Shown: positions 1,299 through 44,156 of the stretch, in pieces
How the letters are laid out: every line of letters begins with the position of its first letter
Numbering within the stretch: the first letter of the stretch is position 1
The notes under the pieces: model-generated
Database searches by the model: none
Told to the model about the DNA's origin: nothing
What the model saw: only the letters and a program-made list of their open reading frames with translations
NCBI RefSeq assembly: GCF_004087835.1
Contig: NZ_CP035119.1
Coordinates: 186,001-250,000, forward strand
Length of the DNA stretch: 64,000 nt
Source of the DNA: Halorussus pelagicus
Lineage (GTDB): Archaea; Halobacteriota; Halobacteria; Halobacteriales; Haladaptataceae
Reading direction: 5' to 3'
Program-made: the position numbers and the translations under genes

Positions 1299-1859
1299 TC
1301 AGTTTTCCTGTCCGTTGATGTGGTGGAGTTCGGGCGGCGTGCCGACCTCGCCGCCGTGCCTGTACTCGAAGTAGTGGATGACCGCCGAGACACCGAACAC
1401 CGCGAGAATGAGCGTCGCCAACACGAGTCCCGGAATCAGCCCGAAGGGGTAGACGTTCAGCCACACCGCCGCGACCAACAGCGAACTGGCCCCGACCAGT
1501 CCGAGGTAGTATCTGTCCCACGGGAACTCCTCGCGGGAAACGTCGCCCAGATAGATGTCGAGGTCCGAGGCCCGGTCGCCGAGGCGGACGACGCCCTCGT
1601 CGCGGTCGTACTCGACGATGTTCGCCTCGTCAAGTTTCGGGAGGTGGGTCTGATACAGCGAGATGTAGACGCGCTTTCGCTGTTCGGTCGAGAGCGCCGC
1701 GGGCGTCGTCTCGTTCTCCCACGCCGCGACCTGCTCGGTCAGGTCCGAGAGTTCGGTCTCGCCGCCCTCCCGCCGGAGATAGTAGAGGGCGTACCGGCGT
1801 CGAGGACTCTTCAGCACCTCGAAGACCTCGTCCTGAGAGAGTCCGTCAGCGCGGGACAT
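1299..1859 (-). CDS. DUF7344-type winged-helix protein with C-terminal membrane helices
   Basis: 186-residue protein. The N-terminal ~90 residues look like the haloarchaeal winged-helix domain DUF7344 (LSQDEVFEVLKSPRRRYALY start, then YISLYQTHLPKLDEANIVEY as the recognition-helix/wing region). The C-terminal part has two strongly hydrophobic helices (about residues 120-160) followed by a short tail, so it is probably a membrane-tethered DNA-binding protein. I chose the ATG at 1859 because the domain begins there; an upstream start would add 37 arginine/proline-rich residues unlike a haloarchaeal protein. Its stop abuts the glmM start. Function unknown; position suggests a regulator of the glycan genes, which is inference only. 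Confidence 0.8.
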   Translation of the reverse strand: MSRADGLSQDEVFEVLKSPRRRYALYYLRREGGETELSDLTEQVAAWENETTPAALSTEQRKRVYISLYQTHLPKLDEANIVEYDRDEGVVRLGDRASDLDIYLGDVSREEFPWDRYYLGLVGASSLLVAAVWLNVYPFGLIPGLVLATLILAVFGVSAVIHYFEYRHGGEVGTPPELHHINGQEN

Positions 1860-2300
1860 GCTCCTCCGGAACTCGGTAGGTCGTCGGAGGCGATACGCGC
1901 TCGGAGCCACCGGGTCGGGAGGATGTCCGCAGGTGAGACCGCCGCATACCCTCGATATTACTACGTTCACACTTTGTTACCCAGTTGCTTGTGGCGGCTA
2001 GTCCGACTGTACGCCGGGGTTCGAGCGCGATACGGTCCCGGTAACCTCCCCGAACCCCTCGGCGTTCCGGGACGTTCCCTCGAACTCGCTATCCCGAGAA
2101 ACGGGACGTGCGGGCCGCGACAGGAGCCGTCTACTCCGGTTCAAGGGACCGTATAACAAAGAGGAACACAGGTCATTGAATCGATAACGCCCGGCCCGCC
2201 GTCCGGCGATACGGCCGGGCAATCGACTGACCGACTATGATTCCGTTACTACCTGCAAACGATACGTTGGGTCCCCGCTCGCGCGCGGAGGTGGGCCAGC
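1860..2300. promoter_or_regulatory. Divergent intergenic region between the DUF7344-glmM and uronic-acid operons
   Basis: 441 bp with no convincing gene. It must hold promoters for both directions. Two copies of the octamer TAACAAAG occur, one facing each operon: minus strand 1972-1979 and plus strand 2154-2161 (within TATAACAAAG). An AT-rich TAGTAATATCG on the minus strand near 1953-1963 could be the TATA box of the DUF7344 gene. The same octamer recurs at other glycan-gene promoters in this window. Confidence 0.45.
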
Positions 2301-2921
2301 GTGGCTAAGGCCGACTCTCGGTCCGAGCGCGAGGACCGAATCGCCCCCGAACTCGGCGACGACTGCGAAGTCGCCCCGAACGCCACGGTGGGCCACCGCC
2401 ACCGCGCTGACGCCCGACCGCCCCGAATCGGCGACCGAGCGACGATTCGCTCGGGCACCATCGTCTACGCCGACGTGGAAATCGGCGACGACTTCACCAC
2501 CGGACACGACGCGCTGGTCCGCGAGGACACCCGCGTCGGCGACGACGTGGTGGTCGGCACCAACACCGTTATCGACGGAACGACGACCGTCGGTTCGCAC
2601 GTCAGCCTTCAGACCGGCGTCTACGTGCCGACGAACACGACCATCGGCTCGGAGGTGTTCGTCGGGCCGAACGCAGTGCTGACCAACGACGCCTACCCCA
2701 TCCGCGAGGAGTACGACCTCGCCGGGCCGACGCTCGAAGACCACGTCTCAGTGGGCGCGAACGCGACCCTACTCCCCAGCGTGACGGTGGGCGAAGGCTC
2801 GTTCGTCGCGGCCGGTGCGGTCGTGACCGAGGACGTGCCCCCCGAGACGCTGGCGGTGGGCGCGCCCGCCGAGTTCCGAGAGTTGCCCGCGGCGCTGAAA
2901 GGAGGGAATCGAATCGCATGA
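2301..2921 (+). CDS. Left-handed beta-helix N-acetyltransferase (WbpD/WlbB-like)
   Basis: 206-residue hexapeptide-repeat acyltransferase. Visible are about ten rungs of the pattern [VI]GxxxxI (for example IGDRATI, VGDDVVVGTNT, IGSEVFVGPNA, VSVGANATLLPSVTVGEG) and the C-terminal AVGAPAEF seen in sugar N-acetyltransferases such as WbpD/WlbB, which acetylate the 3-amino group of UDP-2-acetamido-3-amino-2,3-dideoxyglucuronate. Start is GTG at 2301. The stop overlaps the start of the next gene as ATGA, and the downstream genes supply the other pathway steps, which is the main reason for the specific assignment; on sequence alone it is a generic NeuD/WbpD-type acetyltransferase. Confidence 0.85.
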   Translation: MAKADSRSEREDRIAPELGDDCEVAPNATVGHRHRADARPPRIGDRATIRSGTIVYADVEIGDDFTTGHDALVREDTRVGDDVVVGTNTVIDGTTTVGSHVSLQTGVYVPTNTTIGSEVFVGPNAVLTNDAYPIREEYDLAGPTLEDHVSVGANATLLPSVTVGEGSFVAAGAVVTEDVPPETLAVGAPAEFRELPAALKGGNRIA

Positions 2922-4000
2922 TTCCCATCGCCGACCCCGAGATGGGCGAACGTGAAATCGAGCGCGTGCGCGAGGTCATGGAGTCGGGGCGCATCGCCGA
3001 CGGCCCGGAGGTTCGCGCCTTCGAAGAGGAGTTCGCTGAGTTCTGCGGGACCGACCGCGGCGTCGCCACGAGCAACGGGACGACGGCGCTCCACACCGCC
3101 TTCGAGGCGCTCGGTATCGGGCCGGGCGACAAGGTGGTGACGACGCCGTTCTCGTTCGTCGCCAGCGCGAACGCGATTCGACTCGCGGGCGCAGAGCCGG
3201 TCTTCGCGGACATCGACCCCGAGACGTACAACCTCGACCCCGTGGCCGTCGAGGAAGTCGTCCGGCGCGAGGCCGACGTGGCCGCCATCCTACCGGTCCA
3301 TCTCTACGGTCTCCCCGCGGAGATGGACCACCTGCTCGATATCGCCGACGACCACGACCTCGCGGTTATCGAGGACGCCGCGCAGGCCCACGGCGCGGCG
3401 TTCCGAGACCAGCGCGTCGGGTCGCTGGGCGACGCGGCCTGCTTCTCGCTGTATCCGACCAAGAACATGACCACGGGCGAGGGCGGGGTCGTGACGACCG
3501 ACCGCGACGACGTGGCCGAGCGCGCCGAGAGCTTCGTCAACCACGGCCGCCCGCCGGAGGGCGGGTACGAACACGTCAGCGTCGGCCACAACTTCCGGCT
3601 GACCTCCATCGCGGCGGCCATCGGCCGGGTGCAGTTGGACCGTTTGCCGGACTACAACGAGGCCCGGCGGGCGAACGCGGCCTACCTCACCGACTCGCTG
3701 GTTGACGCCGACGTGACGACACCGACCGAACCCGCCGACCGAACCCACGTCTACCACCAGTACACGATTCGGACCGACGACAGGGACGGACTGGCCGCCC
3801 ACCTTGATGAGGTGGGCATCGGCACGGGCGTCTACTACCCGACGCCGATTCACGAACAGCCAGCTTACGACGACGTGATTCACGACGCACCGGTCGCCGA
3901 GCGGGCGGCCGAGCGAACCCTGTCGCTCCCGATTCACCCGAACGTCTCCGAACGAGACCTCAGAACCATCGTCTCCGCAATCAGAGAGTATGACCGATAG
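2918..4000 (+). CDS. DegT/DnrJ/EryC1/StrS PLP-dependent sugar aminotransferase (WbpE-like)
   Basis: 360-residue aminotransferase. Family signs: MIPIADPEMGERE start, substrate/PLP loop SNGTTALHTAF near 52-62, acidic IEDAAQAHG (Asp153 pairing with the PLP ring nitrogen), and the PLP Schiff-base lysine Lys182 in SLYPTKNMTTGEGG. Length is normal for the family. In the WbpE role it would transaminate UDP-2-acetamido-2-deoxy-3-oxo-glucuronate, normally with glutamate as donor. It overlaps the acetyltransferase upstream by 4 bp and the dehydrogenase downstream by 11 bp, so translation is probably coupled. Substrate is inferred from context. Confidence 0.9.
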   Translation: MIPIADPEMGEREIERVREVMESGRIADGPEVRAFEEEFAEFCGTDRGVATSNGTTALHTAFEALGIGPGDKVVTTPFSFVASANAIRLAGAEPVFADIDPETYNLDPVAVEEVVRREADVAAILPVHLYGLPAEMDHLLDIADDHDLAVIEDAAQAHGAAFRDQRVGSLGDAACFSLYPTKNMTTGEGGVVTTDRDDVAERAESFVNHGRPPEGGYEHVSVGHNFRLTSIAAAIGRVQLDRLPDYNEARRANAAYLTDSLVDADVTTPTEPADRTHVYHQYTIRTDDRDGLAAHLDEVGIGTGVYYPTPIHEQPAYDDVIHDAPVAERAAERTLSLPIHPNVSERDLRTIVSAIREYDR

Positions 4001-5012
4001 ACCGACCAATAGGACCGACCGGACCGACGACGCGGACGGCCCGACGAACGCCGCCGTCATCGGCGTCGGGAGCATGGGCAGACACCACGCGCGAGCGTAC
4101 AGCGAACTGCCGGACGTGACCCTCGTCGGCGTCTACGACGTGGACGACCAACAGGCCCGCGAGGTCGCGGCCGACCACGGCGCGAGAGTGCTGGAGATGG
4201 ACGCGCTCCTCGGGACGGCCGACGTTGTCTCCATCGCGGTGCCGACGCGGTTCCACGCCGACATCGCGCGCGACTGCATCGACAGCGGCGTGGACGTGCT
4301 GGTCGAGAAGCCCTTCGTTGACGACCCCGCGGTCGGGCGCGAACTGATAGCGCGGGCCGACGACGCGGACGTGACGATTCAGGTCGGCCACGTCGAGCGG
4401 TTCAACCCTGCGATTCGGACGCTGTCAGACATCGTGGCCGACCTCGACGTTATCGCAGTCGAGGCCGAGCGCCTCGGGCCGCCGCCCGAGGGCAGACAGA
4501 TAGACGAGAGCGCGGTGCTTGACCTGATGATTCACGACATCGACGTAGTGTTGGCGATGCTCGGCGAGGACCCCGAGAGCGTCACCGCCCACGGCGTCCG
4601 GAACAACCAGTACGCGACGGCGGACCTGACGTTCGCCGACGGGACCGTCGCCTCGCTCACCGCGAGCAGAGTGACCCAACAGCGCGTCCGGAAACTGGCC
4701 ATCACGGCAGAGAGCTGTCGGGTCAACGTCGATTACATCGACCGGTCGATAGAGATACACCGCCACTCGCTGCCGGAGTACATCGAGGACAACGGCGACG
4801 TGCGCTACCGCCACGAGAGTATCGTGGAGCGCCCGACCGTCGAGAGCGGCGAACCGCTCAAAAACGAGTTGGAGGCGTTCGTCTCGGCGGCCACCGGCGA
4901 CGCCGACCCGGTGGTCTCGGGCGAGGACGGTCTCAAGGTCCTCGAAGTCGCGCGCGAGATTCACGAGTCGGCCGCCGACGAGCGCCCCGAAACGGAGGTG
5001 AGCGTCCGGTGA
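3990..5012 (+). CDS. Gfo/Idh/MocA-family NAD-dependent sugar dehydrogenase (WbpB/WlbA-like)
   Basis: 340 residues. After a short hydrophilic leader comes the Rossmann motif VIGVGSMGRHHARAY, and further on the EKP signature in VLVEKPFVDD and IQVGHVERFNP, both typical of Gfo/Idh/MocA oxidoreductases. The family member WbpB/WlbA oxidises UDP-GlcNAcA at C3. The reading frame begins inside the previous gene and ends in a GTGA overlap with the next, in keeping with one operon. The residues before the Rossmann fold (MTDRPTNRTDRTDDADGPTN) are low complexity, so the true start could be slightly downstream. Confidence 0.88.
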   Translation: MTDRPTNRTDRTDDADGPTNAAVIGVGSMGRHHARAYSELPDVTLVGVYDVDDQQAREVAADHGARVLEMDALLGTADVVSIAVPTRFHADIARDCIDSGVDVLVEKPFVDDPAVGRELIARADDADVTIQVGHVERFNPAIRTLSDIVADLDVIAVEAERLGPPPEGRQIDESAVLDLMIHDIDVVLAMLGEDPESVTAHGVRNNQYATADLTFADGTVASLTASRVTQQRVRKLAITAESCRVNVDYIDRSIEIHRHSLPEYIEDNGDVRYRHESIVERPTVESGEPLKNELEAFVSAATGDADPVVSGEDGLKVLEVAREIHESAADERPETEVSVR

Positions 5013-6358
5013 GTCTGCGGGAGGTCGTGCGCCTCTACGGCAACGACGCCCCGGAGGCCGACCAGCGCGAGGCGTTCCTGTCGGGGCGGGTCCCCGTCGC
5101 GGTGTACGGTCTCGGCAAGATGGGCCTGCCGCTCGCAGCGGTGTACGCCGACGTGTCGGGCAACGTCGTGGGCGCGGACGTGGACCCCGCGGTCGTCGAG
5201 GCGGTCAACGCCGGGGAGTGTCACGTCGAGCGCGAACCCGGCCTGCCCGAGTTGGTCGCCGAGAGCGTCAAGTGCGGCGCGTTCGAGACCACTGACGACC
5301 CGGCGGAGGCCGCCGAGCGCGCCGCGGTCCACGTCGTTATCGTGCCGACACCCATCACCGACGAGAGGGAGGCCGACCTCTCTATCCTGCGGTCGGTCGC
5401 CGAGGATATCGGCAACGGTCTCGACCCCGGCGACCTCGTGGTCGTGGAGTGTACGGTCCCGCCGCGGACCTGCGAGGACCTGCTCGAACCCCTGCTGGCG
5501 GAGGCGGCGGGCCACGACGAGTTCGGTCTCGCGTTCTGCCCCGAACGGACCTCCAGCGGCCGGGCGCTCGAAGACATCCGCGGGGCCTACCCCAAGGTCG
5601 TCGGCGGCGTGGACGAGGAGGCCACGCGCGTCGCCGAACTCGTCTACGGCGAGATTACGGACAACGACGTACTCGCAGTCTCCGACGCGACGACCGCGGA
5701 GGCCGTGAAGGTGTTCGAGGGACTCTACCGCGACGTGAACATCGCCTTGGCCAACGAACTCGCCACGCTGACCGACGAAATGGGCATCGACGTGAACGAG
5801 GCCATCGAGACGGCCAACACCCAACCGTTCTGCGAGATTCACTCGCCGGGTCCCGGCGTCGGCGGCCACTGCATCCCCTACTACCCGTACTTCGTCATCA
5901 ACGGCTTCGAGACGGAGTCCCCACTGCTGGAAACCGCCCGCGAAGTCAACGATTCGATGCCGGAGTTCACCGTCGAGACGCTGACCCGCGAGCTCGACGC
6001 CGAGGGGAAATCGCCCGAGGAGACCACCGTGGCGATACTCGGCCTGACCTACCGGCCGGGCGTCGAGGAGACCCGCGCGACGCCCGCCGGTCCCATCGCG
6101 GAACGCCTCTCGGCGCTCGGCGCGTCCGTTCTCGCGGTTGACCCGATGGTGAACGACGCCGAGAGGTTCGGTGCGAGATTAATATCGCAACATGAGATTT
6201 ACGGGCGAGACCTCGACGCAATCGTGCTGGTGACGCCCCACGGCGAGTTCGACCACATCGAGTGGGAGCGGTTCGACCCGCTGGTGGTCGTGGACGGCCG
6301 CCAGAGCCTCGACCTCGCGGAGACCGACCACCGCGTCTACACCATCGGGAGCGGGTAG
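5009..6358 (+). CDS. Nucleotide-sugar 6-dehydrogenase (UDP-GlcNAc/ManNAc dehydrogenase, WbpA/WecC type)
   Basis: 449 residues in the UDP-glucose/GDP-mannose dehydrogenase family, normal length. NAD-binding GLGKMGLPLA at 34-43, central helix with Lys234 in EAVKVFEGLYRDVNIALANE, catalytic Cys288 in GVGGHCIPYYP, and C-terminal UDP-binding Rossmann domain with GLTYRPGVEETRATP. Such enzymes oxidise the C6 hydroxyl to a carboxylate with two NAD. In the pathway proposed here it converts UDP-GlcNAc to UDP-GlcNAcA; a UDP-ManNAc dehydrogenase is the main alternative, since a 2-epimerase is encoded next. GTG start within a GTGA overlap. Confidence 0.92.
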   Translation: MSLREVVRLYGNDAPEADQREAFLSGRVPVAVYGLGKMGLPLAAVYADVSGNVVGADVDPAVVEAVNAGECHVEREPGLPELVAESVKCGAFETTDDPAEAAERAAVHVVIVPTPITDEREADLSILRSVAEDIGNGLDPGDLVVVECTVPPRTCEDLLEPLLAEAAGHDEFGLAFCPERTSSGRALEDIRGAYPKVVGGVDEEATRVAELVYGEITDNDVLAVSDATTAEAVKVFEGLYRDVNIALANELATLTDEMGIDVNEAIETANTQPFCEIHSPGPGVGGHCIPYYPYFVINGFETESPLLETAREVNDSMPEFTVETLTRELDAEGKSPEETTVAILGLTYRPGVEETRATPAGPIAERLSALGASVLAVDPMVNDAERFGARLISQHEIYGRDLDAIVLVTPHGEFDHIEWERFDPLVVVDGRQSLDLAETDHRVYTIGSG

Positions 6359-6552
6359 CGATGGGCCGGGCGTGCCGCCGTCGCGCCAGTTTTCGACCGA
6401 CCGCTCCGAGCGGTCCGTTCGGCGCGAATCTGTCGGCACGGACCGACACCGCGAAACGACCGTCGCGGACCGACGCGCGGCGTCGGTACGCTCTCCGACG
6501 CAACTCCGACCCGCAACGTCCGAACAGAACGAAAAATCTGTCTCAAAAACGT

Positions 6553-6645
6553 ATGAACAATTTCCAAAGCATCGTACATCGTTCCGAAAGTGAACCGTCC
6601 GTCGGCGCAGAACCCGACGAATCGACCGCGGAGGGCGACTCGTGA
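6553..6645 (+). CDS. Putative 30-residue leader ORF overlapping the 2-epimerase start
   Basis: Short ATG ORF (30 residues, acidic C-terminal half) in the 283-bp gap after the dehydrogenase. Its stop codon overlaps the GTG start of the epimerase as GTGA, exactly the coupling seen between the other genes of this operon. An AT-rich stretch (GAAAAATC and CTCAAAAAC, 6530-6551) lies just before it and could be an internal promoter. No homology recognised. It could be a real small protein, a translation-coupling leader, or chance. Confidence 0.35.
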   Translation: MNNFQSIVHRSESEPSVGAEPDESTAEGDS

Positions 6646-7703
6646 AGGTCCTCACCGTCGTCGGCGCGCGGCCCCAGTTCATCAAGGCCGCCGCCGTCTC
6701 GCGCGAACTCCGTCGCCGCCACGAGGAGGTGTTGGTCCACACCGGCCAGCACTACGACGAGGAGATGTCCGACGTGTTTTTCGAGGAGTTGGCCATTCCG
6801 GAACCCGACGAAAACCTCGGCGTCGGGTCCTCAAGCCACGGCGCACAGACCGCCGAGATGCTCGCCGGGTTGGAGGAACGCATCGAACGCGTCGAACCCG
6901 ACGCGGTGCTGGTCTACGGCGACACCAACTCCACGCTCGCGGCGGCCATCGCGGCCTCGAAGATGGACACCCGACTCGCGCACGTCGAGGCGGGACTCCG
7001 GAGCTACAACCGCGAGATGCCCGAGGAGATAAACCGCGTGCTGACCGACCACGCCGCCGACGACCTCTTCGCGCCCTCCCGGCGCGCGGTGGCGAACCTC
7101 CGCGAGGAGTCGGTCGCGGGCGCGGTCCACGAGACCGGCGACGTGATGTGCGACGCCGTGTGCTGGGCGCGCGACCGCGCCGTGGACCGCTCGGAGATTC
7201 TGACCGAACTCGGCGTCGAGTCCGGCGAGTACGTGCTGGCGACGGTTCACCGCGCGAGCAACACCGACGACCCCGACCGCCTCGCGGCGATTCTGGACGC
7301 GCTCGCCGCGGAGGTCCGCGAAGTCGTCCTGCCCGCCCACCCGCGGACGATAAACCGTATGCGGGAATACGCAATGCTCGACGACGCCCGCGAGAAGTTG
7401 ACGCTCGTGGACCCCGTGGGCTATCTTGACTTCGTGCGACTGCAAGACTGCGCCGACGTAGTAGCGACCGACTCGGGGGGCGTCCAGAAGGAGGCGTTCT
7501 TCCTCGACACGCCCTGCGTCACGATGCGCGAGGAGACCGAGTGGCGCGAGACGGTCGAAGCCGGGTGGAACGAGTTGGTCGGCGCGAACAAGGCCGCCAT
7601 CCGGCGGGCGCTGGCCGACGCCGACCCGCCGGGAGAGAAACCCCAGCCCTACGGCGACGGCGACGCCGCGGCCAGAATCACCGACCTGTTGGACGATGAC
7701 TGA
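6642..7703 (+). CDS. wecB: Non-hydrolysing UDP-GlcNAc 2-epimerase family (WecB or WbpI)
   Basis: 353 residues with the family hallmarks: N-terminal VLTVVGARPQFIKAAAV, HTGQHYDEEMSD, VYGDTNSTLAAAIAA, HVEAGLRSYNREMPEEINR and C-terminal TDSGGVQKEA. It epimerises C2 of UDP-GlcNAc (WecB) or, in the Wbp pathway, of UDP-2,3-diacetamido-2,3-dideoxyglucuronate (WbpI); sequence reading cannot separate these, but the upstream WbpA/B/E/D set favours WbpI. GTG start chosen because the conserved N-terminus begins there. It overlaps the deacetylase-like gene by 8 bp. Confidence 0.92.
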   Translation: MKVLTVVGARPQFIKAAAVSRELRRRHEEVLVHTGQHYDEEMSDVFFEELAIPEPDENLGVGSSSHGAQTAEMLAGLEERIERVEPDAVLVYGDTNSTLAAAIAASKMDTRLAHVEAGLRSYNREMPEEINRVLTDHAADDLFAPSRRAVANLREESVAGAVHETGDVMCDAVCWARDRAVDRSEILTELGVESGEYVLATVHRASNTDDPDRLAAILDALAAEVREVVLPAHPRTINRMREYAMLDDAREKLTLVDPVGYLDFVRLQDCADVVATDSGGVQKEAFFLDTPCVTMREETEWRETVEAGWNELVGANKAAIRRALADADPPGEKPQPYGDGDAAARITDLLDDD

Positions 7704-8790
7704 CGAGAGTGACTTCGAGCGCGAGAGGGGGAATGGAAACAGCGACGCGCCCGCGGACCCCCGCGTCGCGGGGGTCCCCTCCGCCGTGGCCGACAGCGAG
7801 TTCGCGCTCCTGCTGACTCACGACGTGGACCGGCCGTACAAGACGGTCCAGTCGGCGTACCACGCGGTCGCGCGCCGCGACCCCCGGCAGTTGCTCGACC
7901 TGCTCCCCGGCAACAACCCGTGGTGGCAGTTCGAGGAACTGATGGCGCTGGAAGAGTCGCTAGGCGTCCGGTCGGCGTTCTACTTCCTGCGCGAGAAACA
8001 CCTGCTCGAACGGCCGCCGAGCGACTGGCTCGACCCTTTCTACTGGGTCGAGCATCTAGGGCGCTACGAGATAGAGACTCCCGAGATGTACGACCTGCTT
8101 GCCCGCCTCGACGAGGGCGGATGGGAGGTCGGACTCCACGGGTCGTACGACTCCTACGACGACCCTCATCGCCTCCGCATGGAGAAGACGACGCTGGAGG
8201 CCGCGCTCGGCGACGACGTGGTCGGCGGCCGCCAGCACCACCTGAACCGCGGGCCGGAGACGTGGGACCACCACCGCGAAATCGGCCTGCACTACGACGC
8301 CAGCCCCGGTTCGAGCGAGACGGTCGGCTTCGACCACGGCTACCTGCCGCTCCGGCCGTTCGGCGACGAGTTCGTCGTCTTCCCGCTGACCGTGATGGAG
8401 TGTGCGCTCCCGGACCCCGGCGAGGACTTCGAGCGCGCGTGGCGCGAGTGTGAGTCCCTGCTGGCGGAGGCGGCCGACAACGGCGCGGTAATGTCGGCGC
8501 TCTGGCACCCGCGGCTGTTCACGGAGACCGACTTCCCCGGCTATCGGCGACTCTACCGGAAACTGGTCGAGCGCGCGCTGGAGATGGGCGCGTGGGTCGG
8601 CCCGCCCCGCGACTACTACGAGTCGATGGCCCATCCCGGCGAGGAAGTCGTCGGTGGCGAGGGCGTCACTGACGAGGGCGTCGCTGGCGAGTCGGACGAG
8701 TCCGAGAACCGCCGCAGGGCCGACTTACGACGGCGGCAGGCGGACGATAACAAAGTGAAAACCGGACCGAACACCGAGTCAACAGGATGA
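7696..8790 (+). CDS. Polysaccharide deacetylase-like protein (NodB fold, variant motifs)
   Basis: 364 residues. After ~30 flexible residues comes FALLLTHDVDRPYKT, matching motif 1 of the NodB/CE4 fold (T-H/F-D-D/V-D), then FYFLREKH, EVGLHGSYDSYDD in place of the H-x3-H zinc motif, a Glu/His-rich middle and MSALWHPRLFTETDFPGYR near the end. Only the first histidine of motif 2 is present, so it may be a different hydrolase or catalytically altered. Haloarchaeal and bacterial exopolysaccharide loci often carry such a gene. The C-terminal ~45 residues are a low-complexity charged tail. Overlaps both neighbours, so it belongs to the same operon. Confidence 0.75.
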   Translation: MTDESDFERERGNGNSDAPADPRVAGVPSAVADSEFALLLTHDVDRPYKTVQSAYHAVARRDPRQLLDLLPGNNPWWQFEELMALEESLGVRSAFYFLREKHLLERPPSDWLDPFYWVEHLGRYEIETPEMYDLLARLDEGGWEVGLHGSYDSYDDPHRLRMEKTTLEAALGDDVVGGRQHHLNRGPETWDHHREIGLHYDASPGSSETVGFDHGYLPLRPFGDEFVVFPLTVMECALPDPGEDFERAWRECESLLAEAADNGAVMSALWHPRLFTETDFPGYRRLYRKLVERALEMGAWVGPPRDYYESMAHPGEEVVGGEGVTDEGVAGESDESENRRRADLRRRQADDNKVKTGPNTESTG

Positions 8791-9875
8791 GAGTCGAGCA
8801 ACTCGAACTTGACGAGTGGGAGTCGGCACTGCCGAGCGACGGCTTCGAGGTGTTTCACCTGCCCGACGCGCTGGAAGTGGTCGATAGACACAGCGACGCC
8901 GAGATGAAGCTGTTCGGCGGATTCAAGGGCCAACAGCCCATCGCACTGTTGCCGGTCTTCGTCCGCCGGAAGTCGGTCGGCACCGCGGTTACCTCGCCGC
9001 CACCGGGCATGGGTATCCCCCGACTAGGACCGATTCTGATGCCGACCAGCCCCAAGCGGCGCAAGCAGGAGAAGGTCAACAACGAGTTCACGGAGGCGGT
9101 CCTCCAGCGCGTCGGCACCGACCTCGACTTAGACGCGCGACTCGCCGAGGCCGGGGTCGAGTCGCCGACGGCCGAGCGCGTGCTGGACTCGCTGGACGTG
9201 GACTCGCGGCTGACACTGTTCCGCATGGAGTGCAACGCCGCCTACGGCGACCCCCGACCGTACGCGTGGGGGAACCTACAGGTCGAACCCCACTTCACGT
9301 ACTTCCTCGACTTGGCGGGCAGAGACGCCGAAGGCGTCCGCAAGTCGTTCTCCAAGAGCCTGCGGCGCGAGATTCGGGACGCCGAGGACCTCGACGTGAC
9401 CGTCGAGTGCGAGGGCGTGTCGGGTGCCCGCGCTATCTACCGAGCGACCGCCGAGCGGTTCGCCGAGCAGGACGAACCGTTCGCGCTATCGTGGGCCTAT
9501 GTCCGGAACCTCTTCGAGGCGCTGGCCGAGGAGGACCGCGCGCGGGCCTACGTCGCCCGCGACGGCGACGGCGAGTACCTCTCGGGCATCACCGCGCTCT
9601 ACTCGAACGACCACGCCTACTTCTGGCAGGGCGGCGCGAAGGCCATCTACGAGGGCACCGCGGTCAACAGTCTCATCCACTGGCGACTCCTCAAGGACAT
9701 CATCGAGGACCCGCCGGTCGAATCGGTCACGCAGTACGACCTGATGGGCGCGAACACCGAACGGCTCTGTCGCTACAAGGCGAAGTTCGGCGCAGACCTC
9801 GAACCTTACTACGTCGTGGAGTCCTCGGGCGCGGCGATGAACGTCGCCAAGCGGGCCTACGAACTGGTCCAGTAG
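8787..9875 (+). CDS. FemAB/GNAT-like acyltransferase
   Basis: 362 residues. The C-terminal half has the GNAT-type signature of the FemAB/BioF2-like family: SKSLRREIRDAEDLDV, FAEQDEPFALSWAYVRNLF, ARAYVARDGDGEYLSG, YFWQGGAKAIY and INSLIHWRLL-type helix, ending with the YKAKFGADLEPYY motif typical of this group. Bacterial relatives transfer aminoacyl groups to peptidoglycan amines, and related genes sit in exopolysaccharide clusters. Here an amino-sugar or lipid-linked glycan is a plausible acceptor, but this is inference. ATGA overlap with the previous gene; last gene of the operon. TAACAAAG occurs at 8748-8755, about 31 bp before its start. Confidence 0.75.
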   Translation: MRVEQLELDEWESALPSDGFEVFHLPDALEVVDRHSDAEMKLFGGFKGQQPIALLPVFVRRKSVGTAVTSPPPGMGIPRLGPILMPTSPKRRKQEKVNNEFTEAVLQRVGTDLDLDARLAEAGVESPTAERVLDSLDVDSRLTLFRMECNAAYGDPRPYAWGNLQVEPHFTYFLDLAGRDAEGVRKSFSKSLRREIRDAEDLDVTVECEGVSGARAIYRATAERFAEQDEPFALSWAYVRNLFEALAEEDRARAYVARDGDGEYLSGITALYSNDHAYFWQGGAKAIYEGTAVNSLIHWRLLKDIIEDPPVESVTQYDLMGANTERLCRYKAKFGADLEPYYVVESSGAAMNVAKRAYELVQ

Positions 9876-9935
9876 TCGCGGTCGTCCGGAGCGAGGGCGT
9901 CCGGCAGTCGATTTTCGAAGGTTCGAAAGAACGAG

Positions 9936-10100
9936 TCAGCGCATCGCTTCGACGGCGACCGCCGCGTCGGACTTCAACCACGCGGCGTCGTTTTTTGTGT
10001 CGTAGACGACGGTTTCGCCACCGCCGTCCTCGACGGCGGCGTAGCGGTCGGTCTCTCCCTCGGCGTCACGGCCGTTTTCGCTGTCGTATGTTTCGGTCAT
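9936..10100 (-). CDS. Small acidic haloarchaeal protein, DUF7331-like
   Basis: 54-residue protein read from ATG at 10100 to TGA at 9936. Hydrophilic acidic N-terminus, then ETVVYDTKNDAAWLKSDAAV, a pattern (V-x-YD-x-x-N/D-x-x-AW-[LI]-x-SD) I associate with the haloarchaeal DUF7331 family. Role unknown. It is convergent with the glycan operon (60 bp from the FemAB-like stop). A perfect 9-bp inverted repeat lies just upstream of its start. Confidence 0.7.
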   Translation of the reverse strand: MTETYDSENGRDAEGETDRYAAVEDGGGETVVYDTKNDAAWLKSDAAVAVEAMR

Positions 10101-10110
10101 TTGTTGAACG

Positions 10111-10133
10111 CTCACTTACGGGCAGTAAGTGAG
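10111..10133. promoter_or_regulatory. 9-bp perfect inverted repeat upstream of the DUF7331-like gene
   Basis: CTCACTTAC and GTAAGTGAG separated by GGGCA. It starts 11 bp before the ATG at 10100 on the minus strand, where a repressor site or an mRNA hairpin would act. No T-run follows on either strand, so it does not look like a terminator. Confidence 0.45.
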
Positions 10134-10358
10134 TTTCTGTCAGTTACTCGGGGGCGTACGTTGATAAGGACTAGCAAACGTTTCGGTAACTGGGTGAGCC
10201 GAACGTAACCCCCTCGACCGACCCACGAAGCGACCCCAAGCGACCCTCCGGCGTCGGGCGTTTTCGACGCCTACGGCGCGTCAGGCGGCCCATAACAAAG
10301 CCCGGAAACGGGCTTTGGAGAAGTAACGACGCGCCCGTCCGGGCGCGGTCTGATTACC

Positions 10359-12164
10359 ATGGTTTCCGACACGCAACCCTCCCAGAGACGGGAGAAAGGC
10401 GCACTCCTCGTCGGTTTCGTCTCGCTCGCGGCGGCGGTACTCGCCGCCCGCGGATCGCCGCCGGAGGCGTACGAACTCTCGATATACACCGGTACCCCAC
10501 CGGCGTTCTGGCTCGGAATCGCCGCGGCACTCCTCGTCGCGGTGTTCGTCGGACTGCGGGCCGAGGGCGTCCCGCGGCGACTCGCGCTCGTCCTCGGCGG
10601 CATCGGAATGCTCGCGGTCGCCTCCCTGCCCGTCCTGCGGTCGTACTACTTCTACGGCGCGGGCGACGCGCTGACGCACCTCGGGTGGGCGAAGGACATC
10701 GCGGCCGGGAAATTGGCCGTCGTGGACCTGCTCTACCCCGGCACCCACACCATCGCGGTCTTCCTCGCGGACGCGACCGGGATAGAACTCGCCCGCGCGA
10801 TGCTCGTGAGCGTGATGGCGTTCACGGCGACGTTCCTGCTGTTTCTCCCGCTGGCGACGTGGGCCATCACCCGCGACCGGCGCGCGACCACGCTGGCGGC
10901 GCTGTCGGGACTACTCATGCTCCCGCTGAACAACGTCAGCGTCTTCGACATGCCCCACCCGACCACGCAGGCCATCATGTTCCTGCCGCTAGTCCTCTAT
11001 CTGGCGGCGCGCTACCTGACGCGGGCCGACCGCGACGAGCAATCGGTCGGAACGCCGACCGGCGCGCTGTTGGCGGTGGCTTCGACCGCAATCGTGTTGG
11101 TCCACCCCCAGCAGGCCGCGAACGTCCTCGTCGTCTTCGCGGTAATCGCCGGGTTCCAACTGCTCGCCCGAGTCCTCGGGAAGGGGACGACCGGCCACCG
11201 AACGTTCGCGCTACAGGCGGGCTTCCTCGTCGGGGTGTTCGCGTTGTGGACGCCCCGCCACGAGCGTGCTTCGGGAGCGAGTTCCGCCCTACTGAACATG
11301 TTGGCGAGCGGCCTGCAGTTGGGGTCCGAAACCTCGCAGGCCGCGGGGTCGGTTGCCTCGGTCGGTGGCTCCATCGAGGTGCTGTTCGTCAAACTGTTCG
11401 CGGTGAGTCTGGTGTTCTGTGCGCTCGCGGGCCTGCTGGTCCTCGGCGGATTCTGGGGGCACACCGAGAGACCGGACGTGACCGCATTCGCCCGGTACTT
11501 CGGGCTGGCGCTGATTCCGCTGTTCGGACTGCTCGTGGCCTACTTCGTCGTCAGCTACGAGAAGCTCCACTTCCGGCAGTTGGGGTTCATCATGGTGTTG
11601 GTGACGATTCTCGGGAGCGTCGGACTCGCCCGCGGGATGGACCTGCTCTCGACGCGCTTCTCGCTGTCGTCGGGGACCGCGCGGACGCTCGTCGGCGTCG
11701 CGCTCGTGGTCATGCTCGCGGCGTCGGTTCCCACAGTGTACCAGTCGCCGTATATGTACCAGAGTTCCAGCCATGTCTCTGAGCGTCAGATGACTGGCTA
11801 CGAGTCCGCCATCGACCACCGTGGGTCGGTCCCGTTCGTCGGCGTTCGGGGGACCGGCGAGCGCTGGGCCGACGGCGTGTTGGGCTACGAGGAGAGCCGC
11901 GAGCGCAGACTCGGCACCGGGAGCCTCTACGCCGACGAGAGCAACCCCGCGGTCGGCGAGAACTTCACCGGGAGCTACGTCGCCCGCCACTACGCCGACC
12001 GGTATCTGGCGTACACCGACCGCGTTCGCCAGCAGGAACTCGACGTGTACGATGCGTTCCGGTTCGACGAGGCGGGCTTTCGCTCGCTCGACGCCGCGCC
12101 GGGACTGAACCGAGTGCAGGCCAACGGCGGCTTTCAGCTGTATCAGGTAAACGAGACGAGATAG
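10359..12164 (+). CDS. Large polytopic membrane protein, GT-C-like
   Basis: 601 residues. About 12 hydrophobic segments cover residues 15-475, then a soluble extracellular-type domain of ~120 residues. After the first helices there is YYFYGAGDALTHLGWAKDI, an acidic-loop motif in the position where GT-C glycosyltransferases carry their catalytic Asp, followed by LLYPGTHTI. No WWDYG-type motif, so it is not AglB. It is followed 36 bp later by the flippase gene and could be a lipid-linked sugar transferase, polymerase or ligase. The assignment to the GT-C superfamily is tentative. TAACAAAG at 10293-10300 may be part of its promoter. Confidence 0.65.
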   Translation: MVSDTQPSQRREKGALLVGFVSLAAAVLAARGSPPEAYELSIYTGTPPAFWLGIAAALLVAVFVGLRAEGVPRRLALVLGGIGMLAVASLPVLRSYYFYGAGDALTHLGWAKDIAAGKLAVVDLLYPGTHTIAVFLADATGIELARAMLVSVMAFTATFLLFLPLATWAITRDRRATTLAALSGLLMLPLNNVSVFDMPHPTTQAIMFLPLVLYLAARYLTRADRDEQSVGTPTGALLAVASTAIVLVHPQQAANVLVVFAVIAGFQLLARVLGKGTTGHRTFALQAGFLVGVFALWTPRHERASGASSALLNMLASGLQLGSETSQAAGSVASVGGSIEVLFVKLFAVSLVFCALAGLLVLGGFWGHTERPDVTAFARYFGLALIPLFGLLVAYFVVSYEKLHFRQLGFIMVLVTILGSVGLARGMDLLSTRFSLSSGTARTLVGVALVVMLAASVPTVYQSPYMYQSSSHVSERQMTGYESAIDHRGSVPFVGVRGTGERWADGVLGYEESRERRLGTGSLYADESNPAVGENFTGSYVARHYADRYLAYTDRVRQQELDVYDAFRFDEAGFRSLDAAPGLNRVQANGGFQLYQVNETR

Positions 12165-12200
12165 CGTGACACGCGACTACGACACGACATTTCGACAATC

Positions 12201-13667
12201 ATGGATTTGAAACGCTTCGCGCGCTCGTTCAAGGCGATGCTGGGTGCGCGCGCCCTCCACATGGCGGCAAGTGGCGTGCTGACCGTCGTCCTCGCGCGGT
12301 ACCTGCTGACCCAAGAGCAGTACGGACTGCTCGGGTCGGCGCTGGCCGTGCTAGGGGTCGTGCAACTGTTCACGGATCTGGGCATCGCCAAGGCGGCCGC
12401 GCGCTACGTCACGGAGTACCGCGAGACGAACCCCAAACAGGTGCCCCACGTCCTCCGGACCGCGGTGATATATCGCCTCGGGTGCGTCTTCGCCGTCGGC
12501 GGCCTGTTCGCACTTCTCGGCGGGTACGTCGCCGAACTCGTCGGCCAACCCGAGATAGCGACCCTGCTGGTCGTCGGCACGGGCTACATCGCGGCCCACT
12601 CGATGTTCACTTTCTCGCAGGTGCTGTTTCAAGGGTACAACCAGATAACCGACAGCGCGCTCATCCGGGCGGTCGGGTCGGTCGCTCGACTCGCGCTCGC
12701 GGCGGCGTTCGTCCTCATCATCGGTGGCGCGGTCGGCGCGCTGGTCGGCTACATCGTCGGCTACGGTCTCGGCGGTCTGCTCGGTCTCTACCTGCTCTAC
12801 CGGAAGTGCTACCGGGACGAGGAGAAAGCCGAGCGACCCGAGGAGGGTCTCAAGCGCCGGGTCGCCCGGTACAGCGTCCCGCTGACCGCGACCCGCGGGG
12901 CCAACATCCTCGACAAGCGCGTGGACACCATCCTCGTGGGCTACTTCATGAACCCGGTCGCGGTGGGGTATTACTACCTCTCGAAGCAGGTCGTGGGGTT
13001 TATCCACTCGCCCGCGGCCTCGCTCGGGTTCACGCTCTCGCCCGCCTACGGCGAGCACAAGGCCGGGGGCGAGACCGACCGCGCCGCCGGAATCTACGAG
13101 ACGACGCTGAAGTACATCCTGCTGCTGTACGTCCCGGCCGCGGCGGGCGTCGTCATCGTGGCCGAACCCGCATTGTCGCTCGTCTTTGGCGAGAAGTGGG
13201 TCGGTGCCGCGCCCGTCTTACAGGTGTTCGCGGCCTACGTCGTCCTCCAAGCGATTTCGTACGTCACGGGCGACACGCTCGACTTCCTCGGGCGGGCGCG
13301 CGAGCGAGCAATCGCCAAGGGCGGCGGGTCGGTCGCCAACTTCCTGTTGAACCTCGTGATGATTCCCGCGTTCGGCGTGGTCGGCGCGGCCGCCGCGACA
13401 GTAATCACCCACAGCGCCGTCCTCGCGGTCACGCTCTGGGTCATCCACGCCGAACTCTCGCTGTCGGTCGGCGCGCTCGTTCGCCACTTCCTCGCGGTCG
13501 CCGCCGTCACGGGCGCGATGTCCGTGGCGGTCCTCGCGGTCCTCACGCAGGCCGCGGGCGCGCTCGCGGTCGTGGCGTCGGTCGTCGCCGGTATCGCGGT
13601 CTGGGCGGGTCTCTCGGTCGCGGGCGGCCTGCTCGACCTGCGGCGCGTCAGAACCATCTTCACCTGA
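12201..13667 (+). CDS. Flippase for lipid-linked oligosaccharide (Wzx/RfbX, MOP superfamily)
   Basis: 488 residues with about 14 predicted membrane helices. Typical family features: N-terminal LARYLLTQEQYGLLGSALAV, DLGIAKAAARYVTEY after helix 2, the duplicated six-helix layout, and LDKRVDTILVGYFMNPVAVG at the start of the second half. These proteins move undecaprenyl- or dolichyl-linked glycans across the membrane. ATG start at 12201 lies 36 bp after the preceding membrane-protein gene, so the two are likely co-transcribed. Confidence 0.9.
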   Translation: MDLKRFARSFKAMLGARALHMAASGVLTVVLARYLLTQEQYGLLGSALAVLGVVQLFTDLGIAKAAARYVTEYRETNPKQVPHVLRTAVIYRLGCVFAVGGLFALLGGYVAELVGQPEIATLLVVGTGYIAAHSMFTFSQVLFQGYNQITDSALIRAVGSVARLALAAAFVLIIGGAVGALVGYIVGYGLGGLLGLYLLYRKCYRDEEKAERPEEGLKRRVARYSVPLTATRGANILDKRVDTILVGYFMNPVAVGYYYLSKQVVGFIHSPAASLGFTLSPAYGEHKAGGETDRAAGIYETTLKYILLLYVPAAAGVVIVAEPALSLVFGEKWVGAAPVLQVFAAYVVLQAISYVTGDTLDFLGRARERAIAKGGGSVANFLLNLVMIPAFGVVGAAAATVITHSAVLAVTLWVIHAELSLSVGALVRHFLAVAAVTGAMSVAVLAVLTQAAGALAVVASVVAGIAVWAGLSVAGGLLDLRRVRTIFT

Positions 13668-13759
13668 ATCATGACTCGGACACTACTCACTCGACGCACG
13701 ACCGTTCGGCCGACGACCGAAACCCGGCTTATTTGCCGCGCCGAATCGAGGGGAAAACC

Positions 13760-14725
13760 ATGAGCGAGGGTGCGTCAGCGAGATACGATTCGATAGCGAG
13801 CGACAGCGAGGTGTCCGACCGGACGGTGCTGATAACCGGGGGCGCTGGATTCGTCGGAAGCCACCTCGCGGAGGCACTGGTTGCAGACAACGAGGTCCGA
13901 ATCCTCGACAATCTCTCGGGAGGCGCGCGCGCCCACGTTCCCACGGGCGCGGACCTCGTGGAGGGAGACGTACGCGACACCGAAACGCTCGCCGACGCGA
14001 TGGCTGGCGTGGACCTCGTGTTCCACGAGGCCGCGCTGGTGTCGGTCGAGGAGTCGGTCGCCGACCCGCCCAAGAGCAACCGCATCAACGCCGCCGCGAC
14101 CGTGGACCTGCTCGAAGCGGCCCGCAAAGAGGACGCCCGCGTGGTGCTGGCGTCCTCTGCCGCGATTTACGGCCACCCCGATTCGGTCCCGGTCGCCGAG
14201 GGCGACTCGAAAGACCCGACCTCGCCCTACGGCATCGATAAACTGGCCCTCGACCACTACGCTCGACGGTATCACGACCTCTACGGTCTCGAAACCGTCC
14301 CACTGCGCTACTTCAACGTCTACGGCCCGCGCCAGAACCCGGAGTACAGCGCGGTCGTCAACGTCTTTTTCCAGCAGGCCGCCGACGGCGGTCCCCTCAC
14401 CGTCGAGGGCGACGGCGAACAGACCCGCGACTTCGTCCACGTCCGCGACGTGGTGCAGGCGAACCTGCTCGCGGCGACGACCGACCGCGTGGGCGAACCG
14501 TTCAACGTCGGGACGGGCCACAGCGTCACGGTGAACGAACTCGCCGAGACGGTGGTCGAGGTGACGAACTCCGAGGCCGAGATTACCCATGTCGAGACCC
14601 GTCCCGGCGACATCCGCCACAGCGAGGCCGACATCTCGACGGCGCGCGAGGAGTTGGGCTACGAACCGACGATTTCGCTGGCGGACGGACTTCGGACGTT
14701 GGCCGCGGTGAAGGGATTGCGATAG
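13760..14725 (+). CDS. NAD-dependent epimerase/dehydratase (UDP-glucose 4-epimerase type)
   Basis: 321 residues, extended short-chain dehydrogenase fold. GGAGFVG at residues 27-33 binds NAD; SSAAIYG near 132-138 and Tyr157-x3-Lys161 (SPYGIDK) form the catalytic set; RYFNVYGPRQNP and RDFVHVRDVV are characteristic of UDP-hexose 4-epimerases and related GDP-sugar enzymes. I took the ATG at 13760, about 20 residues before the fold; the frame is open much farther upstream but there it overlaps the flippase. 92 bp after the flippase gene, likely the last glycan gene of this segment. Exact sugar unknown. Confidence 0.88.
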   Translation: MSEGASARYDSIASDSEVSDRTVLITGGAGFVGSHLAEALVADNEVRILDNLSGGARAHVPTGADLVEGDVRDTETLADAMAGVDLVFHEAALVSVEESVADPPKSNRINAAATVDLLEAARKEDARVVLASSAAIYGHPDSVPVAEGDSKDPTSPYGIDKLALDHYARRYHDLYGLETVPLRYFNVYGPRQNPEYSAVVNVFFQQAADGGPLTVEGDGEQTRDFVHVRDVVQANLLAATTDRVGEPFNVGTGHSVTVNELAETVVEVTNSEAEITHVETRPGDIRHSEADISTAREELGYEPTISLADGLRTLAAVKGLR

Positions 14726-17710: not shown

Positions 17711-17746
17711 GGATATAAAGCTTTACTCAAATTTCACGCGCGATAA
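17711..17746 (-). promoter_or_regulatory. Transducer promoter: TATA box plus upstream motility-type palindrome
   Basis: On the minus strand TTATCG-CGCG-TGAAAT (17746-17731) is followed after 11 bp by TTTATATCC (17719-17711) and the start at 17685. Spacing matches the elements before arlB, arlCE and cheY (10-12 bp). The half-sites deviate from TTATCA/TGATAA, so this is the weakest match among the four, but it agrees in 13 of 16 positions with the element in the HTH gene promoter at 20545-20560. Confidence 0.5.
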
Positions 17747-19058: not shown

Positions 19059-19640
19059 TTAGACCGTGACTGCGCTCTCTTGGGAGAGCGACTGCGGCAC
19101 GTTGGCACGGTACTGAGTCACAGCGCCGTACTGGGTGGTGAGCTTGAGTTTGACCTCTTCGCCCTCACCGAGTGCGCTGGAAATCTTGGTAGCGTTCATC
19201 GAGACCTTGAACCGGTCGTCCTGCGTGTTGAGGACCGGCGAGGAGCCGTCGGGGTCCTTGATGGGACTGACCGAGAAGCTGCTGTCGTCCGCAGTCTCGT
19301 TGTACGTCAGCGTCTTGGCTTCCTCTGGCCCGATCCACTCGATGGTGGCCGCCGAGAGGTTGATGTCGTCCGACCCGGAGCCACGCATGACCGTCAGGTT
19401 AACCTGTTCGACTTCCTCGTTACCGACGACGCCGAACGCACTGACGACCTGCACGCGGTTCGAGACCTGTGCACTACTCTCCTGACCAGTCTGCTCGGAT
19501 TTGGTCTGGAGGAACCCAGCCGTGTTGATGAGCACGCCCGCTGCGATTGCTGCGACGAGCACCATCGCGATGAACACGATGAGCGTACCGATACCGACCT
19601 GACCTCTGTCAGTTAGCCGCTCTTTGATTTTCTCTTTCAT
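19059..19640 (-). CDS. arlB: Archaellin (type IV pilin-like filament protein)
   Basis: 193 residues. Class III signal peptide [13 protein letters not shown] with prepilin-peptidase cleavage expected after Gly13, before [19 protein letters not shown], the hydrophobic N-terminal helix that forms the filament core. The surface domain has four N-glycosylation sequons (NLT, NLS, NET, NAT), so it is a likely substrate of the AglB pathway and of the glycan genes in this window. Only one archaellin gene is seen. Its stop and the HEAT gene start are 85 bp apart on the same strand. The promoter carries two palindromes, listed separately. No archaeal prepilin peptidase gene is in the window. Confidence 0.96.
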
Positions 19641-19708: not shown

Positions 19709-19748
19709 CCGTAATAAATCTACGGCCTCGATTATCAGTCCTGATATT
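19709..19748 (-). promoter_or_regulatory. Archaellin promoter: TATA box plus upstream palindrome
   Basis: Minus strand: ATATCA-GGAC-TGATAA (19748-19733), 12 bp, then GATTTATTACGG (19720-19709) as TATA box. The palindrome (plus strand TATCAG-TC-CTGATA inside) sits where BRE-adjacent activators bind in haloarchaea. The same arrangement is found before arlCE and cheY. Confidence 0.65.
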
Positions 19749-19832: not shown

Positions 19833-20114
19833 TCATTCGTCGCCGGTGATACTGTAGATGACGAACAGATAGCCGATAGTGGTGATAAGATAGTTGACCG
19901 ACAGCAGCATTCGGGTCTGTTCGAAGCGAGTCACGAAGGCACTCACAGTCGTCGCTATCGCGGCGGCGACGATGAGCGTAAACCCTATCGAGAGATGGAA
20001 CATCGCCTGTCTGGAGGTCCGACTATACGCGCGGACCGCGATTCCGACCATCGAGAGACCGGCAGTTGCCAACGTGGCGCTGAACACGACGTACAGCAGT
20101 TCTATCGTTTGCAT
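19833..20114 (-). CDS. Small three-helix membrane protein, DUF7521-like
   Basis: 93 residues with three hydrophobic helices (about 5-27, 38-60 and 70-90) and an acidic end (SITGDE). Resembles the haloarchaeal DUF7521 family, often next to small HTH genes; here the HTH gene lies 88 bp upstream on the same strand, so the pair may be an operon in which the membrane protein modulates the regulator. Function unknown. Confidence 0.65.
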   Translation of the reverse strand: MQTIELLYVVFSATLATAGLSMVGIAVRAYSRTSRQAMFHLSIGFTLIVAAAIATTVSAFVTRFEQTRMLLSVNYLITTIGYLFVIYSITGDE

Positions 20115-20202: not shown

Positions 20203-20541
20203 TCATTCTGCTTTCAGGTCGCGCCACACGTCTGCCAGCGAGTTGTCCACGTCCGGGCGGTCATCGACGGACACGTCGATGTTCTTTTCCTCGAAGGTGA
20301 ACTCGAGCGCGTCCACGTTGCGTCGGTACACTTTGGTGCGCCGCCCCTCGTCGGAAAACTCCCTGCCCGACAGTTCGAGCAGGTCAACCTCGGTGAGTTC
20401 CTCGATACGGCGATAGCTCGTCGCTATCGGGATTTCGAGTTCGTCACTCAACTCCTGAGCCGACATCGGCTCGTTCGTGGCGCGGAGTATCTCGGCGTTG
20501 TACTTGTTGCCGAGCACTCGGAGCAGTTCCACGGCCTCCAT
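20203..20541 (-). CDS. ArsR-type winged-helix regulator, candidate motility regulator
   Basis: 112 residues. N-terminal winged helix: LLRVLGNKYNAEILRATNE, SAQELSDELEIPIATSYRRI as helix-turn-helix, LLELSGREFSDEGRRTKVYRRN as wing; acidic C-terminal tail. ATG at 20541 preferred over TTG at 20544. TTTTTAACC on the minus strand (about 20566-20575) is the TATA box, so the mRNA is probably leaderless. TTATCG-CGTT-TGAAAA at 20545-20560 sits between TATA box and start, the position of a repressor site, and matches the element upstream of the transducer promoter in 13 of 16 bases. It lies between arlB and cheW. Confidence 0.85.
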   Translation of the reverse strand: MEAVELLRVLGNKYNAEILRATNEPMSAQELSDELEIPIATSYRRIEELTEVDLLELSGREFSDEGRRTKVYRRNVDALEFTFEEKNIDVSVDDRPDVDNSLADVWRDLKAE

Positions 20542-20544
20542 CAA

Positions 20545-20560
20545 TTATCGCGTTTGAAAA
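20545..20560. promoter_or_regulatory. Possible autoregulatory site in the HTH gene core promoter
   Basis: Plus strand TTATCG-CGTT-TGAAAA, immediately upstream of the ATG at 20541 (minus) and downstream of its TATA box. A protein bound here would block transcription. See the finding on the shared motility motif. Confidence 0.45.
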
Positions 20561-20653
20561 CACGGGTTAAAAAGGTACCGTAGCCGACCCATCAGCGGGA
20601 CCAAACTGGTCGGCGTCGGAACAGTAAAGTAGTATCCGCGGGACCCTCCGAAC

Positions 20654-21073
20654 ATGCCAGAGACAGTCGGCGACGTTCAGGTCCTCGAATTCCGTCTGGA
20701 GGACCGGAAATACTGCATCGACATCGCCCATGTGGACGAGATCGTGGACAAGGACGAACTGACACCACTTCCGAACTCCGACCCTCGTGTCGAAGGGGTG
20801 ATGGACCTCCGGGGTATCACGACGACGATCATCAACCCCAAGCGGGTGCTCGACCTCGAAGAGACCGAGACCGGCGAGCGCGTCGTCGTCCTCGAAAGCG
20901 ACGACGGCGACGAGGACGGAAGCGTCGGGTGGCTCATCGACGCGGTGAATCAGGTCGTCAGCATCGACACCGACGACGTGGACGAGAGCGTCGAAAGCGG
21001 CTCGGTCCGGGGAATCATCCGGCAGGACGACGACTTCGTGGTCTGGGTCAAGCCCGAAGAGATCAACAACTGA
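20654..21073 (+). CDS. cheW: Chemotaxis coupling protein CheW (copy 1)
   Basis: 139 residues, a single CheW/SH3-like domain: VLEFRLEDRKYCIDIAHVDEIV, VEGVMDLRGITTTIINPKRVL (the conserved DLRG-x5-IN/D motif) and RGIIRQDDDFVVWVKPEE. It couples transducers to CheA. It stands alone on the plus strand, divergent from the HTH gene; CAGTAAAGTAG near 20622 may be its TATA box. A second, longer CheW is encoded at 43478. Confidence 0.93.
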   Translation: MPETVGDVQVLEFRLEDRKYCIDIAHVDEIVDKDELTPLPNSDPRVEGVMDLRGITTTIINPKRVLDLEETETGERVVVLESDDGDEDGSVGWLIDAVNQVVSIDTDDVDESVESGSVRGIIRQDDDFVVWVKPEEINN

Positions 21074-36534: not shown

Positions 36535-36570
36535 ACATTAATCTTCCCCCTGAGTTATCAGCGTTGATAC
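36535..36570 (-). promoter_or_regulatory. arlCE operon promoter: TATA box plus upstream palindrome
   Basis: Minus strand: GTATCA-ACGC-TGATAA (36570-36555), 11 bp, then GATTAATGT (36543-36535) as TATA box, 25-33 bp before the ATG at 36510. Same layout as at arlB and cheY. It would drive arlCE-F-G-H-I(-J). Confidence 0.65.
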
Positions 36571-43401: not shown

Positions 43402-43438
43402 GAAATAAATTCTCCCCTCTGATTATCACGATTGATGC
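43402..43438 (-). promoter_or_regulatory. cheY operon promoter: TATA box plus upstream palindrome
   Basis: Minus strand: GCATCA-ATCG-TGATAA (43438-43423), 10 bp, then GAATTTATTTC (43412-43402) as TATA box, about 36-46 bp before the ATG at 43366, leaving a short leader. Same layout as at arlB and arlCE. Confidence 0.65.
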
Positions 43439-44005: not shown

Positions 44006-44156
44006 AGCAGTCTCTAATATGAACATCGAACCCTAGCATGTAAAACCCACCCTCGTCTCTCGGATTTGATAATCGGCCGCGAGACGACGACGGGAGTCTC
44101 GCGCCGTCGCGGCGCGCAGGAGAAACCTACTTGTCACAGGAGTGTAATGACGGCGT

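Follow-up and report, generated by a model that had tools for sequence, protein, structure and literature searches.

The promoter of csmR in Halorussus pelagicus carries, between its TATA box and its start codon, a predicted binding site for the protein that the gene itself encodes, and from this position CsmR probably represses its own synthesis. The gene lies in a stretch of 64,000 nucleotides that was analyzed as a whole (the window). CsmR was described in Haloferax volcanii as a regulator of motility and cell shape (HVO_1209; PLoS Genet, June 2026, PMC13286277); the regulator and its motif are thus already published, and what is new relative to that work is the self-operator, its distribution among lineages, and the set of boxes in Halorussus. 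We consider the following model, taken as a whole, likely. A CsmR dimer would bind palindromic TATCA-N4-TGATA boxes, which at archaellum, chemotaxis and chemoreceptor promoters are located 11-14 bp upstream of BRE/TATA, a position compatible with recruitment of TBP/TFB. In the csmR promoter the box is instead located between the TATA box and a leaderless start codon, and therefore bound CsmR should block RNA polymerase there and hold its own level down, which would constitute negative autoregulation. The features around csmR are as follows.

20203-20541, minus strand: csmR ortholog, a 112-residue winged-helix regulator (Pfam HTH_20, E 8.6e-12), stop codon included.
20545-20560 (core 20546-20559), no strand assigned: predicted self-operator of the csmR promoter, TTATCGCGTTTGAAAA on the plus strand and TTTCAAACGCGATA on the coding strand.
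20567-20573, minus strand: TATA box of csmR, TTTTTAA, recognized by sequence, with a BRE-like GGTACC at 20574-20579.
20654-21073, plus strand: cheW, the divergent neighbor (CheW, E 1.2e-25), with no CsmR box beside its TATA.
19833-20114, minus strand: a small membrane-protein-like gene (DUF7521, E 1.2e-07).
19059-19640, minus strand: arlB, archaellin gene (Arch_flagellin, E 2.1e-37).

The original prediction held that the small helix-turn-helix gene in this region might be the motility regulator, and it was right in this: by sequence comparison the gene is the Halorussus ortholog of CsmR, an experimentally established motility regulator in H. volcanii with the ChIP-seq motif TATCA(N4)TGATA. 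It is flanked by cheW (20654, plus strand) on one side and by DUF7521 and arlB on the other, in the order csmR-DUF7521-arlB, two genes upstream of the archaellin. While the mechanical open reading frame begins at a TTG (20544), the ATG at 20541 is the start conserved in relatives. The protein is 58.7% identical over 109 residues to the CsmR candidates of genomes assigned to Haloferax by their PCNA; the comparison used the loci of these genomes in place of HVO_1209 itself. The PCNA of genome G238 is identical at 245 of 247 positions (two differences) to the sequence of PDB 3hi8, which we take to be the H. volcanii protein. The Haloferax loci have boxes matching at 9-10 of 10 positions in the arlA1, cheY and arlC regions, and their gene order (csmR, arlA1, arlA2, and the KaiC-like gene cirA) agrees with the published one, in which a 13 kDa winged-helix protein is encoded upstream of arlA1/arlA2 (PMC13286277). 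Because locus order, sequence identity and the Haloferax boxes all agree, we regard the window gene as the CsmR ortholog and the element in its promoter as a CsmR box. At E<=1e-20, one or two csmR matches per genome were present in 227 of the 293 genomes of the order.

Several observations concern the neighborhood. The gene immediately downstream of csmR is DUF7521 in Halorussus, Haladaptatus, Halomicrococcus, Halobacterium and also in family f11; in Halegenticoccus and family f4 it stands beside csmR. In the Haloferax locus L134, a homology search found no DUF7521. The DUF7521 product may be a functional partner of CsmR or supply its input signal. Positions 1-14000 of the window, read by eye, hold genes of nucleotide-sugar and sugar-transfer type (mutase, aminotransferase, dehydrogenase, epimerase-like) that adjoin the motility cluster and possibly serve archaellin glycosylation.

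An AlphaFold2 model of CsmR predicted a winged helix (pLDDT 82) with Phr of P. furiosus as the closest fold (PDB 2p4w; Z 11.7, rmsd 3.1, 98 residues) and ArsR-type repressors as the next-best structural matches (Z 9-10); as modeled, the protein has the ArsR-type winged-helix fold. Searching the PDB by sequence with a CsmR profile gave no match. CsmR has been classified as an Lrp/AsnC protein (PMC13286277), a label that derives from its DNA-binding part. Beyond the winged helix the model contains only two strands and one helix, and therefore the RAM domain (beta-alpha-beta-beta-alpha-beta) that defines Lrp/AsnC proteins is absent from it; a Pfam scan likewise found HTH_20 and no AsnC effector domain.

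On the coding strand the csmR promoter reads GGTACC-TTTTTAA-CCCGTGT-TTTCAAACGCGATAA-TTG-ATG. The element had been described as TTATCG-CGTT-TGAAAA, located between the TATA box and the start codon and sharing 13 of 16 bases with an element of a transducer gene (17732-17745), and both coordinates and sequence bear this out. Across the 3.49 Mb of the genome there are just two perfect copies of TTATCG-N4-TGAAA, both in this cluster and 2.8 kb apart. Chance does not account for the match, but the reading of the element as a one-directional word was dropped in favor of the palindrome TATCA-N4-TGATA; the element is a near-palindrome, TATCR-N4-YGAWA, so its orientation means little. It matches the CsmR ChIP-seq motif with two-fold symmetry at 8-9 of 10 positions. 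That it might instead be a control element of the divergent cheW was ruled out, given that it does not lie beside the cheW TATA. Given the TATA box at -32 to -26, transcription of csmR is expected to start at the ATG or right beside it, giving a leaderless mRNA, and the CsmR box would then cover the region that RNA polymerase must occupy. The gene thus has the site arrangement of a negative autoregulator, a predicted site for its own product in its own promoter, downstream of TATA.

A scan of the window for TATCA-N4-TGATA gave 11 sites with 8 or more of the 10 positions matched, where a Markov model expects 2.45. The predicted boxes at motility genes, none with a strand assigned, are these.

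19733-19746: box of arlB, TATCAGTCCTGATA, 14 bp upstream of the TATA at 19712-19718.
36556-36569: box of the arlC-led operon, TATCAGCGTTGATA, 14 bp upstream of a TATA-like TTAATG.
43424-43437: box of cheY, TATCACGATTGATG, 14 bp upstream of TATA.
17732-17745: box of a chemoreceptor (MCP) gene, TATCGCGCGTGAAA on the coding strand, 12 bp upstream of TATA.
44058-44071: variant box, the weakest of the set, TATCAAATCCGAGA on the coding strand, 8/10 in the window scan.

The arlB, arlC and cheY copies score higher against TATCA-N4-TGATA than the csmR copy does. Most relatives have a box ahead of the archaellin gene, as at arlB; in the six relatives for which arlC was aligned, the arlC box matches at 10/10 and its spacing is unchanged; and the cheY box matches at 8/10 or 9/10 in 16 of 16 relatives. 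The gene behind the box at 17732-17745 encodes an MCP domain, and the gene at 43478-44026, a putative second CheW-like gene, has a TATA-like TTTTACA that the variant box precedes by about 12 bp. The remaining sites (29489, 31454, 41927, 46164 and 51117) lie inside coding sequence or lack a suitable TATA and were treated as chance, though the one at 31454, upstream of arlJ, may be a genuine box. Outside the window the upstream geometry recurs at two distant archaellin genes (C1:21228, C1:116225), a HAMP/Cache receptor gene (C1:589773), a protoglobin (HemAT-type) transducer (C1:2996650), a gene of unknown function (C1:720787), and a DUF7858 gene (C1:1105711) whose box also lies upstream of a TFB (TFIIB) gene. 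At this last locus (L085, G000:C1:1104212-1107211, site 1500) the box lies between the TFB and DUF7858 genes, 13 bp from the TATA that faces DUF7858; a TFB variant is mentioned in the CsmR network of Haloferax (PMC13286277). The predicted contrast, with sites upstream of TATA at motility promoters and downstream of it at csmR, therefore holds: in this Halorussus genome csmR is the one exception, and all the other boxes precede a TATA-like sequence by 11-14 bp.

A precedent for reading sign from such positions is TrmBL1 of P. furiosus, which when bound downstream of TATA blocks polymerase recruitment and when bound upstream activates; in vitro, downstream binding repressed nine of nine templates and upstream binding activated two of three (PMC4706686). 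Applied to CsmR, this rule predicts repression of csmR itself and a favorable effect on the motility genes, and the first half is our main proposal: from the geometry and the TrmBL1 precedent, we infer that CsmR binds its self-site and represses there. The sign of its control at the Halorussus motility genes is likewise inferred, and it is here that published work cuts both ways. In Haloferax, CsmR is required for motility and occupies its motif at arl and che promoters; ChIP-seq gave 65 peaks, 50 of them with TATCA(N4)TGATA next to TATA, and positive regulation was deduced from site position with the question left open (PMC13286277). Deletion of csmR renders cells non-motile and overexpression makes them hypermotile and rod-locked, yet in the deletion strain arl, che, sph3 and rdfA transcripts rise, the most so for genes with motif-bearing promoter-proximal peaks (PMC13286277). 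The motility-gene half of the TrmBL1 rule, activation of arl and che genes by CsmR, is thus contested by the RNA-seq data, though it agrees with the deletion and overexpression phenotypes. The same transcripts are what speaks for CsmR being mainly a repressor at all of its sites, with repression from the upstream box at motility genes in addition to repression of its own gene. We think this unlikely, though it deserves serious weight, given that the deletion abolishes motility and overexpression enhances it, and that sites upstream of BRE usually activate in archaea.

Autorepression by CsmR from the downstream box agrees with how the self-site is conserved. When the csmR promoters of 26 loci of the same family were aligned, a footprint, GTTWTCAAANNCGATAA, was found at -20 to -4, with a variable flank between it and the TATA region, where a T-run at -32 to -29 is kept in nearly all loci. 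Counting matches of at least 8/10 between TATA and ATG in these related, and hence not phylogenetically independent, genomes, a self-site was present in 14 of 18 Halorussus (expected 0.02) and in all 8 Haladaptatus and Halomicrococcus (expected 0.07), or 22 of 26 loci in the family against 0.09 expected. A stronger argument for a self-site than these counts is that its position is fixed while the central NN varies. In the Haloferax family, 11 of 20 genomes outside Haloferax have it (expected 0.13); no csmR promoter box was found between TATA and ATG in the 3 Haloferax genomes, or in any of the 11 of Halobacteriaceae and family f11. Family f4 has the self-site between TATA and ATG in 3 of 14, and a box immediately upstream of the csmR TATA in 7 of 14 (expected 0.24).

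Two Halorussus genomes (G005 and G008) have degenerate self-sites while keeping csmR and its TATA. Neither has an archaellin beside csmR or a strong archaellin match elsewhere in the genome; cheY boxes remain in both, and each keeps a 10/10 box besides, located at arlC in G005 and, unassigned to a gene, in the G008 cluster. Decay of the self-site together with archaellin loss fits a motility-linked role, for which it is weak support since there are only two genomes and the tree cannot tell two events from one. Short archaellin-domain genes of the arl cluster are kept in both (L015/L162 in G005, L022 in G008), and in G008 a transposase-like sequence follows DUF7521, at the expected place of arlB.

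These data also bear on the alternative that the element is no CsmR operator but a basal promoter or initiator element whose resemblance to the motility boxes is partly coincidental. Its placement where the transcription bubble forms and its AT-richness within a GC-rich genome speak for this, and part of the conservation at -20 to -4 could reflect a basal promoter element. Against this stand the two-fold symmetric match to the CsmR ChIP-seq motif, conservation of the right half along with the left, orthologs in Haloferax and Halobacteriaceae that have normal TATA boxes and no element, and its decay in the two archaellin-less genomes that keep csmR and TATA, and as a full explanation we judge it improbable. 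Very improbable is occupation of the Halorussus sites by a different regulator with a similar palindrome, such as a TrmB-type protein: Pyrococcus TrmBL1 does recognize a similar TATCAC-N5-GTGATA, but its spacing is N5 where CsmR ChIP-seq itself gives N4, and the boxes center on motility and chemotaxis genes and on csmR.

The expected geometry of an autorepressed activator, proposed at the outset as a model of archaellum control, therefore stands as regards a conserved self-site at a repressor-type position, but not as a general model, the Haloferax csmR promoter being without the site. For the same reason the published Haloferax work cannot test autorepression; it reports a csmR transcript that is stable across conditions and makes no mention of CsmR autoregulation (PMC13286277). 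A more tentative reading, which we hold somewhat less probable than not, is that the autoregulatory sign has been rewired between families, the loop being self-limiting, self-enhancing or open according to lineage. On this reading the box downstream of TATA would denote self-repression in Halorussus, Haladaptatus, Halomicrococcus and part of the Haloferax family; half of the f4 csmR promoters tested, with a box immediately upstream of TATA, would resemble activated promoters; and Haloferax and Halobacteriaceae, which have no box at csmR, would run an open loop.

Two further groups of loci were considered. Halobacterium CsmR proteins (L071, L073, L074, L075) show 64-66% identity, and their putative recognition helix is almost unchanged; yet no TATCA-N4-TGATA box of at least 9/10 was found in 16-20 kb of flanking sequence, even though three of the four loci have arlI nearby. 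The best helix-turn-helix matches in families f7, f8 and f3 form a separate tree branch and were excluded from the csmR counts. Proteins of this CsmR-like branch (L048, L049, L050, L052, L053) have 118-121 residues, and a TTATCA-N4-TGAA-like element lies about 15-40 bp upstream of the assigned starts, possibly marking another autoregulated branch; the f8 locus L050 has no archaellin within 6 kb.

The self-operator matters in light of the paradoxical published phenotype of the csmR deletion, no swimming and more archaellum mRNA. A lineage with a conserved self-operator offers a direct readout of the sign of CsmR action, and if CsmR represses csmR and activates arlB through the same box, it is position relative to TATA that decides. 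The self-operator also predicts feedback control of motility that differs between haloarchaeal families, and thus Haloferax results may not transfer to relatives.

Among known systems, Phr of P. furiosus is the closest solved fold to the predicted CsmR model, and it is an autorepressor that binds near its own transcription start; it differs in having 198 residues, with an extra C-terminal part that CsmR lacks, and a heat-shock regulon. EarA, the euryarchaeal archaellum activator, is like CsmR a helix-turn-helix regulator of archaellum genes. The two have no sequence or structural similarity (PMC13286277). TrmBL1, a single factor, combines activation from sites upstream of TATA with repression from sites downstream of it, acting through the palindrome TATCAC-N5-GTGATA (PMC4706686), but it is a different protein, a global sugar regulator, with different spacing and no site in its own P. 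furiosus promoter. Haloferax CsmR is an ortholog of the same size in a like archaellin and chemotaxis neighborhood, with the same palindrome upstream of TATA at arl and che promoters; Halorussus, Haladaptatus and others differ from it in the additional box between the csmR TATA and ATG.
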